Positions 36,358-44,548 of a stretch of DNA of 46,820 bases are shown piece after piece; within the stretch, counting starts at the first letter, position 1, and each line of letters begins with the position of its first letter. The position numbers and the translations under genes were made by a program. Below the pieces are notes generated by a model. The model had not been told where the DNA came from and searched no databases. It saw only the letters and a list, made by a program, of their open reading frames with translations. The DNA is from Oligoflexia bacterium. GTDB lineage: Bacteria > Bdellovibrionota > Bacteriovoracia > Bacteriovoracales > Bacteriovoracaceae. The stretch covers positions 1 through 46,820 of the forward strand of contig JADGAM010000008.1 of assembly GCA_015232015.1 (NCBI GenBank), written 5' to 3'.

Positions 36358-38190
36358 TTAAAACGCAGTTTTTAAATCTTGTAATGTTGGTCTGCCCTTT
36401 GGATCTGGATTACACATTTGCAATATAATTTGTTTTAATTTATCTCTTTCGTCCGAGACGCTTTTAGCTTTAATCGCGGCCATAGTTTTATTCCAATAGC
36501 TATCGTAACGTTCCTGTACTTCACTGGTATTTAGAAACTGGGAAGATAAATCTTTTAGAGAAGTTATATTGTGTAACCAAGGTATACGTTGAACAAAAAG
36601 CAATTCGTATAAAGAAATACCGAGCGAATAGATATCGCCACCCAATATCCTATCTACACTAGAAACATGGGATTTATCTTTTTGTAGTCGATAATAATCT
36701 TGAACCCATTCTGGGGCGTGGTATGGCAACGTTCCTTGAAACGAAGATAATTGCGTGGGATCAGTTAATAATTCAACACTTGTTCCAAAATCGCCTAATT
36801 TAGCAGTAAATTTTCCTTGTGATGATTGCTTCAAAAAAATATTTTCCGGTTTAATATCACGATGAACGATCTTTAAGGTTCTAAGTTCGTAAAGACCTGC
36901 AATAAGGTCTTTAAATATCTTTACGGCATCAGCAGTTTTTATTGATTGAGATGAAGGAAAAGTGCCGCTTTTTACTAATTGTTGAGTTGAAATCAGTTCC
37001 CTCATTGTTTGAGGATAATATTCAAAAAAAATGGCCTGTTTAGGAACTGATTTTCCCTTATCTTTCACTCGTCCAGAATAGTAAACTATATCTTTGCTTC
37101 CCAATAAACCGGGAAGTCCGTAAACTTTGCGAAGAATTCGTTCTTCTTGAAGAGCTGAAGCTAATATTTTTTGATCGGGATGATCAGATGGGGCCTTTGC
37201 CAACTTAGATGTAAGTTTTACTAACAATGTTTCGGGCATGCTTTGAACCGGATATAGCACTGAAAAAGTTGCTTTTTTAAAGGCCCCTCTCCCAAGAGAT
37301 TTTAAATAATGTTTGCTATCTAGATGAACAATAATTTCTCCATTAGGATTGCACTGAAACGAAAGAAAGGGTTTAAAGTTTTTGGTTTGGAAGGCCCGCT
37401 CTTTTTGATAATATACTGGGTGTCCGTCTTTTTTTGCATCAGCAAGACAGCGAGCTTTAACACTTTCTATATAGTATACAAGAACTAAAAAATCTTCTTC
37501 CGCCAGTGTTGAGGAACCAAAAACAGAGGGAAATTTATCTCCTAAAGAATTTAACTTTTTAGCAATTTCCATAACCATTTTCTCTGTAGGGTGATTTTTC
37601 AAACAACTGTTTTTCTCATCAAGGCAAGTGGGGATATCCTCATCTTTTTCAGAAGATGTTTGATCAATCTTTTTTTTACTTAAACGAGTAGCAACGATTT
37701 TACTGATAATATCTTCTATTTTTTGAAGTGCTTGCTCTCTTTCTTTTAGTGATGAAGCTGATGAAGTTCCTTTTTTTAGTAATTCTAAATATTCGTCTCT
37801 TGCTTCGTTGTACTCTTCTATCGCCGTTGTAGTTTTGCTAATCCTTAAATCCACTTTTTTAGTAGCAACTACTGATTTACTTTCTTTCTGAGAAAAAAAA
37901 TGAAATTCACCAAATATTTCTCTTAATATTTTTTTTAAATTTCCCTCAGGTGCTTGGGCAGGCGGTTGAATCGGACTTGACGAAGCAGAACTGGCAAAAG
38001 CGAGAGAAGTGATATTTGACTCTATAAATCCGGTATTTAAAAAAAGCACAACAAAGATAGTTAACATTAATATAAAGTCAGAAAAATATAAATTGAAAAT
38101 AGACTTTTTGTTTTTAAGATTATTATGTAAGTAAGTAAACTTATCGATATAATGTTTTATAGAATGTTTTATAGAATGTTTTATCAGCAT
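36358..38190 (-). CDS. Hanks-type Ser/Thr protein kinase with N-terminal signal/anchor
   Basis: 610 residues. The catalytic domain is C-terminal (about 295-610) and appears complete: Gly loop GRGAF (300-304), Lys325, Glu350, HRDIKPEN (443-450), DFG (467-469) and APE (492-494). Residues 38-56 form one hydrophobic segment ending near FASS, which reads as a signal peptide or anchor behind a 37-residue basic n-region with an Ile-Lys-His-Ser repeat. Bacterial kinases normally have the kinase domain at the N-terminus in the cytoplasm; this order would place it outside. Residues 85-290 are helical and unassigned. First gene of a set with 34264-36342 and 34000-34203. AGGTAGGG lies six bases before the ATG. 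Confidence 0.87.
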   Translation of the reverse strand: MLIKHSIKHSIKHYIDKFTYLHNNLKNKKSIFNLYFSDFILMLTIFVVLFLNTGFIESNITSLAFASSASSSPIQPPAQAPEGNLKKILREIFGEFHFFSQKESKSVVATKKVDLRISKTTTAIEEYNEARDEYLELLKKGTSSASSLKEREQALQKIEDIISKIVATRLSKKKIDQTSSEKDEDIPTCLDEKNSCLKNHPTEKMVMEIAKKLNSLGDKFPSVFGSSTLAEEDFLVLVYYIESVKARCLADAKKDGHPVYYQKERAFQTKNFKPFLSFQCNPNGEIIVHLDSKHYLKSLGRGAFKKATFSVLYPVQSMPETLLVKLTSKLAKAPSDHPDQKILASALQEERILRKVYGLPGLLGSKDIVYYSGRVKDKGKSVPKQAIFFEYYPQTMRELISTQQLVKSGTFPSSQSIKTADAVKIFKDLIAGLYELRTLKIVHRDIKPENIFLKQSSQGKFTAKLGDFGTSVELLTDPTQLSSFQGTLPYHAPEWVQDYYRLQKDKSHVSSVDRILGGDIYSLGISLYELLFVQRIPWLHNITSLKDLSSQFLNTSEVQERYDSYWNKTMAAIKAKSVSDERDKLKQIILQMCNPDPKGRPTLQDLKTAF

Positions 38191-38372
38191 AGCAAACCCT
38201 ACCTGTATAAAAATTTATCATGAAATTTATCATAATATTCTATCGGCATTTTATAATCCTTTTATTAGAAAACAAAAAAATTGTGACATAAAAATCGAGC
38301 TTAGTATTAACTATTAAATAATGTAACTTTAGAGGATTAGAAAAATTTGAATAGACGCGGACAATTTAAACT

Positions 38373-38414: not shown

Positions 38415-40148
38415 TTATAAGTTAATTGAAAAATCAAAACCCACTACATGTTTATTATATTGATATGCCACTTTTGATTTTGAAATATTTTTTGTGTAAT
38501 CATATTTAAAAGTTATTTCAAAAAATTTGGCAAATGTTCTGGCAATGCTTGTTGAAGGATTTATTGTTTGCTCATATCCTCTGGCCTCTCTCTGCTTCAT
38601 AGTATCTGTCAAAGTAAAACTTAATCCAAAAGAAAGTTGATAGTTTGTATAAAAATCAGGAATAATATAATCACCTCTTAAATTATAAACATTTTGAGAG
38701 TTATCTATGTTTCTAGGAGTTGTAGTAAAATCAGCATTAGATAAAAATAAAAGTAATGATTTATTTTGAAAAGCGAAATTTTGAGTTAGAGAAACCGAGG
38801 TTGTATTAGATTTTGTATCATATGTATTAGCAATATAATCTTTTCTTTTAAGTTTAAGTGTCGTATCTCCAATATCAAAGAAAGCAATTTTTTCAGCAAC
38901 ACCATAACTATAAGTTCTACTGTAAAAACGTAATATGCTCTCTTTATTAACATCTTTTGCTGTGTAATTATAATCAAAATCAAAAGTCAAAGTGGCCATC
39001 TTTTTTCCAAATTTATGTTCTGTTTGCCAGTCAATAAATGGATTAATAGTATAAGCATCGTTTTTCTTGATGTCACCAGAACCTCTGTGAGTAGCATTGT
39101 AATTGTTAGTAAGTCTTAGTGTAGGACTAGTTACATATCTTTTCGCAAAAATAAATCTCTTCTTAGCAGTAAAATCAGATTTTAAATAAAAAGTATCTTT
39201 AAATGATGCTTTTTGAGTTGTTTGTTCTGCCTCTGAAATTACGTTAGAATCATACATAGTGCTTTCTTTTAAACTAACAGTATAACCTTTTGGTGATAGC
39301 GTTCTCCCATTTACCATCTTATTTTCGTGTAAATCATACTTATCTTTGATCTCATTAATTCGTCTATTAATTTCTATGGCCAAAACAGATTTAGAATCAA
39401 TTTTTTTTGCCATTTCAAATTGTGGAATTATATCCTCTTTCACACTCTCCACTGGATCCGTTGCTGTTTCCGCTTGCAATAACATTATCTCTGCAATTTG
39501 AAAATTTGCAGCTTGATAAATATCTTTCTCTGAATTTTCATTAATTCTTTGATAATATTTAAGAGCTAAACTATATTGTTCAAGCGTTTGTGAAATATAA
39601 CCTAAATAATAAAGCGAAGAGGTCATCATATAATTTGCTTTAGCTGAATATTTAAATTGATTACGGGCCTTTTCCATCTCTTGGGCCGCATAGTATGCTT
39701 GCCCTAACTCATAATGAATATCCTTTGCAATATTACCTAACTTCAATGCCGACTTAAAATCAACTATAGCTTTATCAAAATCTTGCGATTTACTATAACA
39801 AAGGCCCCTCAAGTAAAAGGCAGTAGCAAAAAACTCTTTTTCCTGTTTATCACTATGAGTTTTTTGGGCCTTCGATTGATCATTGCCTAAAATATCATCT
39901 AACTCCTTCACTGCTGTGGCATAATTACCTTTCTTATAAATCTCCAAAATATTGGTCATAACCTTAGCTCTATCTTGATTTTTTCCATCAGTTGTATCAG
40001 TCACATTAGTTGTATTAGTTGTATCAGTTGTATCAGTGGGTGCGCTATGTACAACAGAAAGATTTATAATTATTGTAAAAAAAATAATTAGTACTAAAAA
40101 TAATTTATTTTTATTTATTCCTTTATTTATTCCTATAGATATCTTCAT
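38415..40148 (-). CDS. TPR protein with C-terminal outer-membrane beta-barrel
   Basis: 577 residues from ATG 40148; an ATG at 40199 directly follows the FecR gene stop, but puts a charged extension in front of the signal peptide. The Shine-Dalgarno AGGAGAG is unusually far (about 12 bases). A signal peptide ends near HSA, followed by a Thr/Asp repeat linker. Residues 60-270 contain four to six TPR-type helices (ATAFYLRGLCYSKSQDFDKA). From about 295 the sequence alternates polar and aromatic residues in strand pairs and ends in FDFSINL, typical of a beta-barrel. The TPR-plus-barrel plan recalls SlaM/PgaA-like exporters. Last gene of the envelope operon from 44548. Confidence 0.78.
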   Translation of the reverse strand: MKISIGINKGINKNKLFLVLIIFFTIIINLSVVHSAPTDTTDTTNTTNVTDTTDGKNQDRAKVMTNILEIYKKGNYATAVKELDDILGNDQSKAQKTHSDKQEKEFFATAFYLRGLCYSKSQDFDKAIVDFKSALKLGNIAKDIHYELGQAYYAAQEMEKARNQFKYSAKANYMMTSSLYYLGYISQTLEQYSLALKYYQRINENSEKDIYQAANFQIAEIMLLQAETATDPVESVKEDIIPQFEMAKKIDSKSVLAIEINRRINEIKDKYDLHENKMVNGRTLSPKGYTVSLKESTMYDSNVISEAEQTTQKASFKDTFYLKSDFTAKKRFIFAKRYVTSPTLRLTNNYNATHRGSGDIKKNDAYTINPFIDWQTEHKFGKKMATLTFDFDYNYTAKDVNKESILRFYSRTYSYGVAEKIAFFDIGDTTLKLKRKDYIANTYDTKSNTTSVSLTQNFAFQNKSLLLFLSNADFTTTPRNIDNSQNVYNLRGDYIIPDFYTNYQLSFGLSFTLTDTMKQREARGYEQTINPSTSIARTFAKFFEITFKYDYTKNISKSKVAYQYNKHVVGFDFSINL

Positions 40149-40199
40149 TTTTTTCTTTATCTCTCCTAAATGTCTTTTAACATCGATACATCGATACAT

Positions 40200-41834
40200 C
40201 TATTGCACATTAATAACAAAATTTACTTTAACAGCGTCAACTTGATTAGTAACTATAGTCTCTATTTTTGTTTGTTGTTGATCGATAAATATTTGATCTC
40301 GAGTTTGCTCAAACTTATTTACTAAATCTTGCATATTAGGTCCCATATAGTATGTGCTTACAGCTGTCGTTGGTGGCATCATACCTGCATAATTCATATT
40401 TACGCCTCCAAAATTCATCAATGGAATATCTGGTGAAATGTATGTCATGTTTGCATTTGGAACTAATACTGCCATAGATGGAGGTGCCATTAATCCAGCA
40501 GCGGTCGAGGTAGTTGCGATAGCTCCTCCGGTAGTGCTAGCAGGGCCTCTGTTTTCAGTTGTTATTGGAACAGTTACTTTTACAAACTGCCCACTTGCCT
40601 CTAACGTAAACCCTTGAGGAGGAAGATATTGACCTGTCCTAAGATCAATTCCTCCAACATTAGGAGGAGGAATAAATACTCCGGTATTTGAATCAAATGT
40701 ACTTCCTGGAGGTGGTGGTATATAAAAACCTGTTTTCAAATCCACAAATCCCCCAGGAGGAGGTCCATCTGCTGCCACTGTTGTTTGTTGTTGTTGCGTG
40801 GCCGATTTATCCCCTGACCCCTGTTGCCCTTCTTCTGTTTTTCCAGCAGCAGCACTTGTAGTTGTAGTTGTTGTAGTAGTAGTTGCAGTAGTTGATTTAT
40901 CTGTGCTTGCTGTTTGCTTATCAACTTTTTTATCTTGTCCACTCTCATTCGCAGAGGTAGAAGCATCAGCTTCAGCTTTCTTACTATCACTTGTAATAGC
41001 AGCACCCATTACTACAACTTTAACTTGTGATTCTAAAATGGCAGCATTACTAGTATTGGCAAATGATTTAGAAGAAACTCCGGGAGGAATTGGAGAAGCA
41101 TAATTTTTCTTTGATTCCGCCTGTGCCTCTTTCAATTCAGGGTTATTTTTAAGACTCTCAAATTGCGATGGTGAAATTTTAGCAGGAGGAGTGGAATTTC
41201 CGTCTTTTACTAAAGAAACTTGTCCTTCTCCAACCATCTTTGCTTGTGGAGAATTTACCTTTGCTTCCATCTTTTGATAATCAACGTTTTTACTTTCTGC
41301 TGGATCAATTGCGCCCATTTTAACTTGACCACTAAAAGTTAATAGCGATGTTAAATTTGTCTCTGAGTTAAAAATTACTTGGAAGTCAGTTCCCCTAATA
41401 CCTAGTGCTGCTGATTGAGTCTTAATAAATAATTTACTACTCTCATCACCTGGATTTTGTTTCAAGTAATCCTTAGTAACTGTACTTCTAATTTGCCCTT
41501 TAATTAAAGATATTAATCCAGGAGCATTTTTTTGAAATTTATTAATTTCCATTTGGCTTTTTGGACCAACATTTACCTGTGATTGATCAATAAAAATAAG
41601 TTTAACAAAACTTTTATCTTGTGTTTCAATAATACTTCCTTCAGTTATCCAATCATCCTTTTTTACAGATTTAACATTTCCACTCTTTTCCTTTGCACTA
41701 ACATCACCTCTTATAATAACTACTTTTGCTACATTTGCTGCCTTATTTTCTTCTCCAATAGCGATGGCCGTCACTAGATATAATAAAAGTAAAATTAAGA
41801 AAAAAGTACCGGAAGTACAGATTAAATTTTTCAT
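40200..41834 (-). CDS. exported FecR-domain protein
   Basis: 544 residues. A signal peptide (1-26) is followed by a FecR-type beta domain (about 35-165) with GDVSAKEKSG, WITEGSIIET, VKLIFIDQSQVNVGP and AALGIRGTDFQV. The rest is low complexity: a Ser/Asp/Lys stretch, a poly-Thr run near 315-325, repeated PPPG..D..TG.(Y/F)(I/L)PP units (about 350-410), and a C-terminal Ala/Met/Pro-rich tail. Without a FecA or sigma factor nearby, it is probably a cell-surface or periplasmic structural protein, not an iron regulator. It sits between two envelope genes in the same operon. Confidence 0.85.
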   Translation of the reverse strand: MKNLICTSGTFFLILLLLYLVTAIAIGEENKAANVAKVVIIRGDVSAKEKSGNVKSVKKDDWITEGSIIETQDKSFVKLIFIDQSQVNVGPKSQMEINKFQKNAPGLISLIKGQIRSTVTKDYLKQNPGDESSKLFIKTQSAALGIRGTDFQVIFNSETNLTSLLTFSGQVKMGAIDPAESKNVDYQKMEAKVNSPQAKMVGEGQVSLVKDGNSTPPAKISPSQFESLKNNPELKEAQAESKKNYASPIPPGVSSKSFANTSNAAILESQVKVVVMGAAITSDSKKAEADASTSANESGQDKKVDKQTASTDKSTTATTTTTTTTTSAAAGKTEEGQQGSGDKSATQQQQTTVAADGPPPGGFVDLKTGFYIPPPPGSTFDSNTGVFIPPPNVGGIDLRTGQYLPPQGFTLEASGQFVKVTVPITTENRGPASTTGGAIATTSTAAGLMAPPSMAVLVPNANMTYISPDIPLMNFGGVNMNYAGMMPPTTAVSTYYMGPNMQDLVNKFEQTRDQIFIDQQQTKIETIVTNQVDAVKVNFVINVQ

Positions 41835-41889
41835 TACCCATCCCTTCTTAATTTAATATAAAAAGCAATCATCAAATACAATAATACCC

Positions 41890-42636
41890 TCACATCACTC
41901 TTAAACCAACAAGTAATATAATTGTATGCTCTTTTACACTTCTTTTATTTTCATCAACATACAAAGTTTTCACCTCTTTTTTAGTTCCTCCAATAACGGA
42001 CATCTTTGAACTTTCAAGATATTTATAAAGTACTTCAACAAAGAATTCCTGACTATAAAGATTTATTATATCGACACCAAATCCACAAATATATCCTATT
42101 CCTTCATAGGTAAGTTTTTGGTGCATATAAAAATCGCTACGAGGATCACTGCTAGTAATATTTCCTCTTTCAAAGTATAAAGATTGTATGGCGATAACTG
42201 GATTTACTATTATGAAAGGATATAACTTTTTAATTTTTTCGCTTTTAGAATTATTAGAAAGCAAATTAAAATTGGTCAGATAATGAGTTATTTTTGGTCC
42301 AAAAGTAAGACTCATTAAAACACCATAATCACTATCTATTGTAGCATTGCCAACTCTAATATAAACGGGTGGTGATTTTGTTATGGTTACATATGAGGCC
42401 ATGGCAAAATCAAAATCTCTAAAACGATATCCAATTGAAGAAGCAAAATCAAAACCAGTATGCCATTTTTTAGGAGTTCTGCCATGAGTACGCATATGAG
42501 TAGCTGATACTCCAAGGGCGCCTTTTAAATTCCATCCTTGAGGTAATAAATTTAGAGTTTCTCCATATAACGAAGAAGAAACTGTAAATAAAGAAAATAA
42601 AGAAAATAAAATAAATAAAGTAATTCTACTATTCAT
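41890..42636 (-). CDS. outer-membrane beta-barrel protein
   Basis: 248 residues. A signal peptide ends near YG. The remainder alternates hydrophobic and polar residues in short strands (FDFASSIGYRFRDFDFAMASYV) and ends in a hydrophobic strand HTIILLVGLRVM, as in small barrels. No specific family. It lies 18 bases after the DUF3943 gene, so it is probably in the same transcript. The ribosome site is weak. Confidence 0.65.
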   Translation of the reverse strand: MNSRITLFILFSLFSLFTVSSSLYGETLNLLPQGWNLKGALGVSATHMRTHGRTPKKWHTGFDFASSIGYRFRDFDFAMASYVTITKSPPVYIRVGNATIDSDYGVLMSLTFGPKITHYLTNFNLLSNNSKSEKIKKLYPFIIVNPVIAIQSLYFERGNITSSDPRSDFYMHQKLTYEGIGYICGFGVDIINLYSQEFFVEVLYKYLESSKMSVIGGTKKEVKTLYVDENKRSVKEHTIILLVGLRVM

Positions 42637-42654
42637 TCTTTTTTTACTTAAAAC

Positions 42655-43446
42655 TTAAAATTCAACCGTTACTAAAACCCCCGGTACCTTCTTAGCATTC
42701 AAAGCAATAGTTGAGGGATATATTGCTACTTTACCTTCATAAAACCAAAATAAAGTTGTGGGATTAAGAATATGTCCTACTACTTTTAAAACAGAAACAT
42801 CAGTGTTAAGAAGAAGTAGGCTAACCTTTTCCAATACCACCCCTAATATACTACCTAAAACTGGTGTTTGATACATATCCTGAATGCTTGCTGGTTCCGT
42901 ATAAATTTCTATAGTAAATTCAAAAAGTGCGCTTTGAACAGCTGTCAATGCAAACGAATTTATTCTAGAATATCCATTGGCCCTATAATACAAATAAAGT
43001 TGTGAACCTGTCATAGGGTGAATTGTCCAATTCCAATAAGGTTCATCTTTATCGAAAACTGCTTTCCCAAAATTGTTTTTATAATTACTCCAAGATCCTT
43101 CACGAGCAAAAGTTTGTGGTTGTGATAAGTAATAAGCACCCCAATTAATTAAGTAAAAAACTCCCAAGTGAGTAAGAGTTTCTTTATTAGTGTGCTCACG
43201 ATCTTTATAGGTATAAATATATTTCAATTGCAGTTGACTCTTTTGCTCTTGAGTATTTTTGTTACTTTCTTCTTTGGCGGTTTTGGTGGATACTGCTTCG
43301 GATGCTTCTTCAGATACTTCTTTGGATACTTCGTCGGATACTTCTTTGGATGTGGCCGATGATATTGTTGGTAGCAACAACATCATCTCTATAAAAATCA
43401 AGAAAAATAAAAAATTAAAATAAAATTCAAAATGTTTAGAACGCAA
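42655..43446 (-). CDS. DUF3943-like exported protein
   Basis: 263 residues, TTG start at 43446 supported by GGAGTGAGAG directly upstream; it overlaps the preceding barrel gene by 11 bases. A signal peptide is followed by a Ser/Glu/Val repeat encoded by a 12-bp unit (about 43270-43355). The domain with WTIHPMTGSQLY, YRANGYSR, S..FEFTIEIYTEPASIQDM and TPVLGSILG matches DUF3943, a family of outer-membrane-associated proteins of unknown role. Second gene of the operon from 44548. Confidence 0.75.
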   Translation of the reverse strand: MRSKHFEFYFNFLFFLIFIEMMLLLPTISSATSKEVSDEVSKEVSEEASEAVSTKTAKEESNKNTQEQKSQLQLKYIYTYKDREHTNKETLTHLGVFYLINWGAYYLSQPQTFAREGSWSNYKNNFGKAVFDKDEPYWNWTIHPMTGSQLYLYYRANGYSRINSFALTAVQSALFEFTIEIYTEPASIQDMYQTPVLGSILGVVLEKVSLLLLNTDVSVLKVVGHILNPTTLFWFYEGKVAIYPSTIALNAKKVPGVLVTVEF

Positions 43447-44548
43447 CTCTCACTCCAAGATTTAATCCCCACAAATTTCCTCCAAAAGCATGGTTTAATT
43501 GTGCATACATTTTAACCGCCCAAATATTTACTTGAGTACCTAAAAAATATCTTGAAAACATTGATTTAGGTTTACCATCATCACCTAAATTAAGAGCAGC
43601 ATTAGCAGTAATACCAGTTAATGTATTGGTTGTATCATTGACAGCAATTGGTCCCGTTGAGACAGCAGTAATCTTAGAGCTACCAGAATTAAAATCAACC
43701 CCTATACCACCAAACAATGTAAGCACATATAGTAACTGCACATTTGTAGAAAGTTCAAGTGGAATAGTATTAATAGAAACATTGGATTCAATTGAGGCAT
43801 TTCCTGTAAAATTTGCATCTAGACTTCTAGTAACACCTGTAGGATCTGTAACATCTCTAGTCTTTGAAATGGCATAATCTTGCGACAATTTTAAATTGGA
43901 AGATCCATGATCAAAACCTGTAGTTATGTCTATTCCTCCCCATTTAAAAAAAAGAGGAGCTGAATAACCATTATAAATTTTATATTGAATGTGAAAACCG
44001 TATGAACTTAAATCTCCGGTAATACCTTTTTTAACTGAAGGTAATTTAACTTTCATAAAGTTTATAAAAGCTGTCATTTTTTTCAAATCAATCACATCAA
44101 ATAAAGTTGGCATACTATCAAAATATTTTAAATTAATACCGCCCATAAGAGATGTCTGAGCTCCTATTCCCTTAAAATTTTTAGCTTCAATTTTACTTGA
44201 GGTTACCTCAGAAAAATTATATCCACCTGTATCAGCGGCAATACCAACACCAAAACCTACAATAAATATGGAAGGATTAGTTGCATAGTCAGTACCTAGT
44301 CCTTTGAGTGCAATTGCTTGTGAGTTTGCCATTGCTGGAGGATAGGAAGTGGTATCAGCTGTAGGCAATTTGGAATTTACTTCAGTCTCTAGATTAGAAA
44401 ATAATGTATTAATATCTGCATGACTAGCAGTAGGAACATTACCATAATTTGTAACTGTTATTCTAAATGGCCCTGCCCATGCATCATTAGCATTTATTAA
44501 AAAGAAAAAGGTGCTTAAGAACAAAAAGATATGTGAAAAAATTTTCAT
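43436..44548 (-). CDS. outer-membrane beta-barrel protein (OmpA/Lsa36-like appearance)
   Basis: 370 residues. Signal peptide to about WAG, GAGGG seven bases before ATG 44548. The rest is Gly-rich alternating strands (FIVGFGVGIAAD, LYVLTLFGGIGVDF, WGLNLGVRVAF) and ends in Phe, the usual terminal residue of outer-membrane barrels recognised by BamA. It recalls Leptospira Lsa36-type proteins, without certainty. First gene of the five-gene operon that includes DUF3943, another barrel, FecR and TPR-barrel genes. Confidence 0.7.
   Translation of the reverse strand: MKIFSHIFLFLSTFFFLINANDAWAGPFRITVTNYGNVPTASHADINTLFSNLETEVNSKLPTADTTSYPPAMANSQAIALKGLGTDYATNPSIFIVGFGVGIAADTGGYNFSEVTSSKIEAKNFKGIGAQTSLMGGINLKYFDSMPTLFDVIDLKKMTAFINFMKVKLPSVKKGITGDLSSYGFHIQYKIYNGYSAPLFFKWGGIDITTGFDHGSSNLKLSQDYAISKTRDVTDPTGVTRSLDANFTGNASIESNVSINTIPLELSTNVQLLYVLTLFGGIGVDFNSGSSKITAVSTGPIAVNDTTNTLTGITANAALNLGDDGKPKSMFSRYFLGTQVNIWAVKMYAQLNHAFGGNLWGLNLGVRVAF

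Follow-up and report, generated by a model that had tools for sequence, protein, structure and literature searches.

Hanks-type kinases of bacteria are normally cytoplasmic. WNK is described as the only functional eukaryotic protein kinase (ePK) family without the usual lysine, which has moved to the glycine loop (PMC1821047). POMK carries a loop lysine, works in the secretory pathway, lacks the glutamate of helix αC and phosphorylates a sugar (PMC12599244). The kinase described here is encoded on a stretch of 46,820 nucleotides (the window) from an Oligoflexia bacterium of the family Bacteriovoracaceae, whose genome assembly comprises 4.9 Mb in 413 contigs. The favored reading, to which we assign a probability of roughly 55%, is that this protein represents a Sec-exported, active and effector-like Hanks kinase. 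As judged from sequence, its export from the cytoplasm is strongly indicated, kinase activity through a lysine relocated to the glycine loop is likely, and its acting on a different cell is an educated guess.

Hydrophobicity analysis (Kyte-Doolittle) reveals a single signal-like or transmembrane (TM)-like segment, residues 39 to 57, and no second one. This agrees with the initial annotation, which described one N-terminal hydrophobic segment and delimited the open reading frame exactly. The next hydrophobicity peak (1.43, at residue 515) falls within the kinase domain, at the position expected for helix F. Residues 1 to 38 contain seven K/R against two D/E, and residues 57 to 84 contain no K/R at all. 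Together with the AFA/SS site, this charge pattern makes a Sec signal peptide in N-in/C-out orientation, with the kinase outside the cytoplasm, a well-supported prediction; it is a rule-based one, drawing on the charged n-region, the hydrophobic core, the -3,-1 site and the lack of a second TM segment. The first ATG is favored as the start because codon preference supports the kinase frame already from this position and a ribosome-binding-like site (GGTAGG) lies 7 nucleotides upstream. Met42 has no ribosome-binding site, and a start there would still retain the hydrophobic segment; the further in-frame starts at residues 113, 197, 205 and 207 are poor. An internal start that removes the segment, which the initial annotation had considered, is thus disfavored.

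Structurally, an AlphaFold2 model built from an 80-row alignment displays a full kinase fold over residues 285 to 610 (mean predicted local distance difference test, pLDDT, 87.5; predicted template modeling score, pTM, 0.89), and supersedes an earlier model from 18 rows with a poor N-lobe. Its best match in the PDB has a Z-score of 25.6 and a root-mean-square deviation of 3.6 over 267 aligned residues (VIA-align). A Pfam search of the window proteins places PF00069 at residues 341 to 607 (E = 3e-28). Along with this fold, the protein has the HRD aspartate, the following asparagine, the DFG aspartate, the APE motif and the αC glutamate that define Hanks-type kinases. It is not of the PknB type, in which an N-terminal cytoplasmic kinase is followed by a TM segment and an outside C-terminal sensor, because its kinase domain is C-terminal and its sole hydrophobic segment N-terminal.

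The same layout of N-terminal signal peptide, linker and C-terminal kinase is found in 28 kinases identified by kinase-core similarity in Bdellovibrionota. The source genome encodes three of these (the window kinase, C40 and C53), and the congener G001 at least ten (C27, C11, C47, C4, C1, C44, C22, C33, C88 and C18). Two other genera of the family contribute two (G002) and three (G020), and a second family of the phylum the rest (four in G031, two each in G323 and G324, one each in G325 and G331); a 29th candidate, cut at a contig start in G323 with its N-terminus unseen, stands outside this count. In the ordinary kinases of these genomes the catalytic domain lies at or near the N-terminus, often with a C-terminal TM segment, and no signal is present. 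The shared anatomy of the 28, one of which is a probable lipoprotein, and its absence from ordinary kinases reinforce, at the level of prediction, the location outside the cytoplasm proposed in the initial annotation. In a phylogenetic tree, the ordinary kinases split from the exported ones. The exported kinases are regarded as a fast-diverging, lineage-expanded set in Bdellovibrionota. No ortholog of the window kinase was found in the congener or among 129 family genomes, nor by peptide patterns in GTDB contigs, and in nine exported or loop-lysine relatives the kinase is the only convincing Pfam match. Two same-family loop-lysine kinases, L142 and L115, are adjacent on one contig (G323:C156). 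The openly accessible literature yielded no report of Hanks kinases exported through Sec in Bdellovibrionota, and a comparative genomics study of predators does not mention kinases (PMC11656739).

The exported kinases are further marked by a displaced lysine. The glycine loop, HRD, DFG and APE motifs listed in the initial annotation are all present, but its choice of Lys325 as the ATP lysine is doubtful: Lys325 is probably not that residue, since the relatives conserve K305 of the glycine loop. MAFFT places K325 in the β3 column, while comparison of the window sequence ETLLVK with EYLLIE of L140, an exported kinase of G031, suggests a position one residue past it. In an alignment of 18 exported kinase domains, lysine replaces the third loop glycine in 17, and the loop lysine occurs in 25 of the 27 exported kinases with a readable loop (that of G020:C66 is unreadable). 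The 80-row alignment sets 24 exported or GxxK kinases, namely 20 from Bdellovibrionota (one cut) and four without signals from a ‘Verrucomicrobia’ metagenome-assembled genome (MAG), against 56 ordinary bacterial kinases; both exported kinases that lack the loop lysine are omitted from it. Here the loop position is lysine in 23/24 of the former versus 0/56 of the latter, all 56 having G, S or A; one odd row, L126 (GIGRFKNI), is seemingly misaligned. Conversely, the β3 ‘VAIK’ lysine is retained in only 2/24 versus 55/56, and in the clear cases (FALAVE, YALSRI, VAIACM) it is gone next to the anchoring alanine. The αC glutamate, HRD aspartate, asparagine and DFG aspartate are invariant in both groups.

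These frequencies are to be read with the selection of the relatives in mind, which were picked by similarity mostly over the HRD-DFG region with a profile that itself favors the loop lysine; in a second batch, loop and signal were inspected together. When outside kinases were selected as a control by the HRD motif only, the loop lysine appeared in 1 of 75 readable loops, and that one belongs to the MAG SZAS-8. The search of GTDB contigs that served as control returned ordinary kinases only, plus L181. SZAS-8 (G368, titled Verrucomicrobia) encodes several loop-lysine kinases (GIGETKIV and similar; L246-L249 and L251) without signal peptides, some of them adjacent on one contig, which are possibly effectors sent by another route.

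In the favored reading, the signal peptide would carry the kinase out of the cytoplasm and be cleaved after Ala66. The kinase domain would then act outside, where, as conservation suggests, ATP would be held by K305 paired with the αC glutamate E349 in a WNK-like manner. The enzyme would finally be released onto a prey or host cell, where ATP is at hand, and a type II secretion system (T2SS) secretin present in the genome offers a possible route out of the cell. Effectors are suggested because the copies are many, divergent and accessory. The alternative that survives best, although we regard it as rather unlikely, is a periplasmic kinase, named beside a secreted effector in the initial annotation, that is kept in the producer's envelope and acts there on proteins of the periplasm or outer membrane. 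A Sec signal by itself reaches the periplasm only, the probable lipoprotein signal of L140 (FSGC) fits an envelope-anchored enzyme, and the genes upstream of the kinase are of outer-membrane and TPR/FecR type. However, a free-living cell is not expected to hold ATP in its periplasm, and divergent accessory copies without a congener ortholog suit effectors better than housekeeping enzymes.

A sugar or glycan kinase resembling POMK is a slim prospect. POMK also combines a loop lysine with the secretory pathway, and DFD or DLD replaces DFG in some exported relatives, but the window kinase keeps DFG, APE and E349, whereas POMK is without the αC glutamate (PMC12599244); in addition, Pfam assigns a protein kinase and the profile matches are protein kinases. 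Slimmer again is the case for an exported pseudokinase that binds without phosphorylating: the β3 lysine is gone in most relatives, but a substitute lysine is present in the loop, and the HRD aspartate, asparagine, DFG aspartate and αC glutamate are invariant in 24/24 at ∼20% identity. An active enzyme is argued for by this conservation, together with a ratio of nonsynonymous to synonymous substitution rates (dN/dS) of ∼0.36-0.44 in one ortholog pair. A cytoplasmic kinase, arising by an internal start or C-in insertion, is very improbable, for the long n-region that would suit it is countered by codon preference from residue 1, the poor later starts, the N-in charge bias, the cleavage site and the layout common to 28 kinases.

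Several observations nevertheless weigh against an exported, effector-like kinase with a relocated lysine. The n-region is unusually long for a signal peptide (∼38 residues), and in the tree, where many branches are long, no single clade of exported kinases is proven. Two exported kinases lack the loop lysine (Ser in G000:C40, Asn in G001:C33), and L100 (G018:C11), a 313-residue frame without a signal, has the loop RGGFKIV alongside an apparently normal β3 lysine (EALKLV). Because these three kinases deviate, the link between the loop lysine and export is strong but not absolute.

Table 1. Features of the exported kinase gene and its surroundings (window positions; residue numbers refer to the kinase unless stated otherwise).
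Feature	Position	Strand	Basis or remark
Kinase gene (stop codon included), 610 aa	36358..38190	-	Open reading frame list; PF00069; in-frame codon preference throughout
Ribosome-binding-like site AGGTAGGG before first ATG	38197..38204	-	Sequence read directly; 4/6 to AGGAGG
Predicted Sec signal peptide, aa 1-66, cleavage AFA/SS (64-68)	37993..38190	-	Charge, hydrophobic core, -3,-1 rule
Hydrophobic core, aa 39-57	38020..38076	-	Kyte-Doolittle mean 2.18
Linker, aa 67-284, four Cys	37339..37992	-	No family match; Pfam sees the kinase only
Kinase domain, aa 285-610	36361..37338	-	AlphaFold2 model, structural alignment
Glycine loop GRGAFKKA, aa 300-307; K305 replaces third glycine	37270..37293	-	Loop Lys conserved in exported relatives
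K325, catalytic Lys of the initial annotation	37216..37218	-	Probably not conserved in family
E349, helix αC glutamate	37144..37146	-	Invariant, 80/80 rows of the 80-row alignment
Catalytic loop HRDIKPEN, aa 443-450	36841..36864	-	H443, D445, N450 invariant in 80/80 rows
DFG, aa 467-469	36784..36792	-	D467 invariant in 80/80 rows
Next gene, 692 aa, N-terminal signal-like segment	34264..36342	-	15 nt downstream of kinase gene

Genomic neighborhood analysis indicates that the kinase gene and the 692-residue gene that follows it (Table 1) are probably on the same transcript. The 692-residue protein belongs to no Pfam family, and its sole homolog is partial (31% over residues 294 to 548), a secreted 451-residue frame in the congener (L031, G001:C16). 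Upstream, a five-gene cluster (window 38415-44548) encoding TPR/outer-membrane, FecR, DUF3943 and two other proteins is kept in the congener (L245, G001:C9) at 55-75% identity. At the syntenic locus the congener lacks both the kinase and the 692-residue gene, and the pair is therefore accessory. More broadly, window 17565-46546 is rich in secretome genes: most of its proteins begin with N-terminal signal-like segments, and these include GH38 mannosidase-like, TGase_elicitor, CBAH, DUF3943, FecR and DUF4360 proteins.

Recurring, lineage-expanded kinases behind signal peptides would imply that phosphorylation takes place within prey or beyond the cell. We tentatively propose that they constitute an undescribed class of Sec-exported, WNK-like loop-lysine kinases, expanded in relatives of predators and acting on prey or host proteins, a proposal we hold less firmly than the assignment of the window kinase itself. 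Bacterial membrane kinases of the PknB type, and the ordinary kinases from genomes with exported members, share the catalytic fold and motifs of the window kinase, but their kinase domain is N-terminal and cytoplasmic, with a GxGxxG/S/A loop and the VAIK lysine, and is often followed by a TM segment at the C-terminus. Possible functional parallels among bacteria are LegK4 (PMC4588518) and SteC (PMC2253691), kinases encoded by accessory genes that act in another cell; these are delivered by type IV or type III secretion systems, whereas the exported set bears N-terminal Sec signals. Fam20C and POMK, kinases of the animal secretory pathway (PMC7948968, PMC12599244), are likewise exported by a signal sequence, and POMK also has a loop lysine, but they belong to another kingdom and compartment.

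The nearest mechanistic parallel is WNK. When the profile of the 18 exported domains was searched against PDB sequences, WNK1 (4pwn) ranked first (E = 1.4e-32), only slightly ahead of other kinases; no WNK chain is among the 50 structural matches listed by Foldseek or VIA-align, which is uninformative either way. Like WNK, the exported set has lysine in place of the third loop glycine, has mostly lost the β3 lysine (22/24 with the GxxK kinases included) and keeps the αC glutamate, HRD and DFG. Unlike WNK, it is bacterial and carries an N-terminal signal peptide, the window kinase has a lysine in or beside the β3 position (K325), and the tree, in which branches are long, places WNK1 apart from the exported kinases. 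The exported set thus appears to work in a WNK-like fashion at the loop position without being assigned to WNK, and a bacterial set sharing this lysine shift would constitute a second case beside Wnk.
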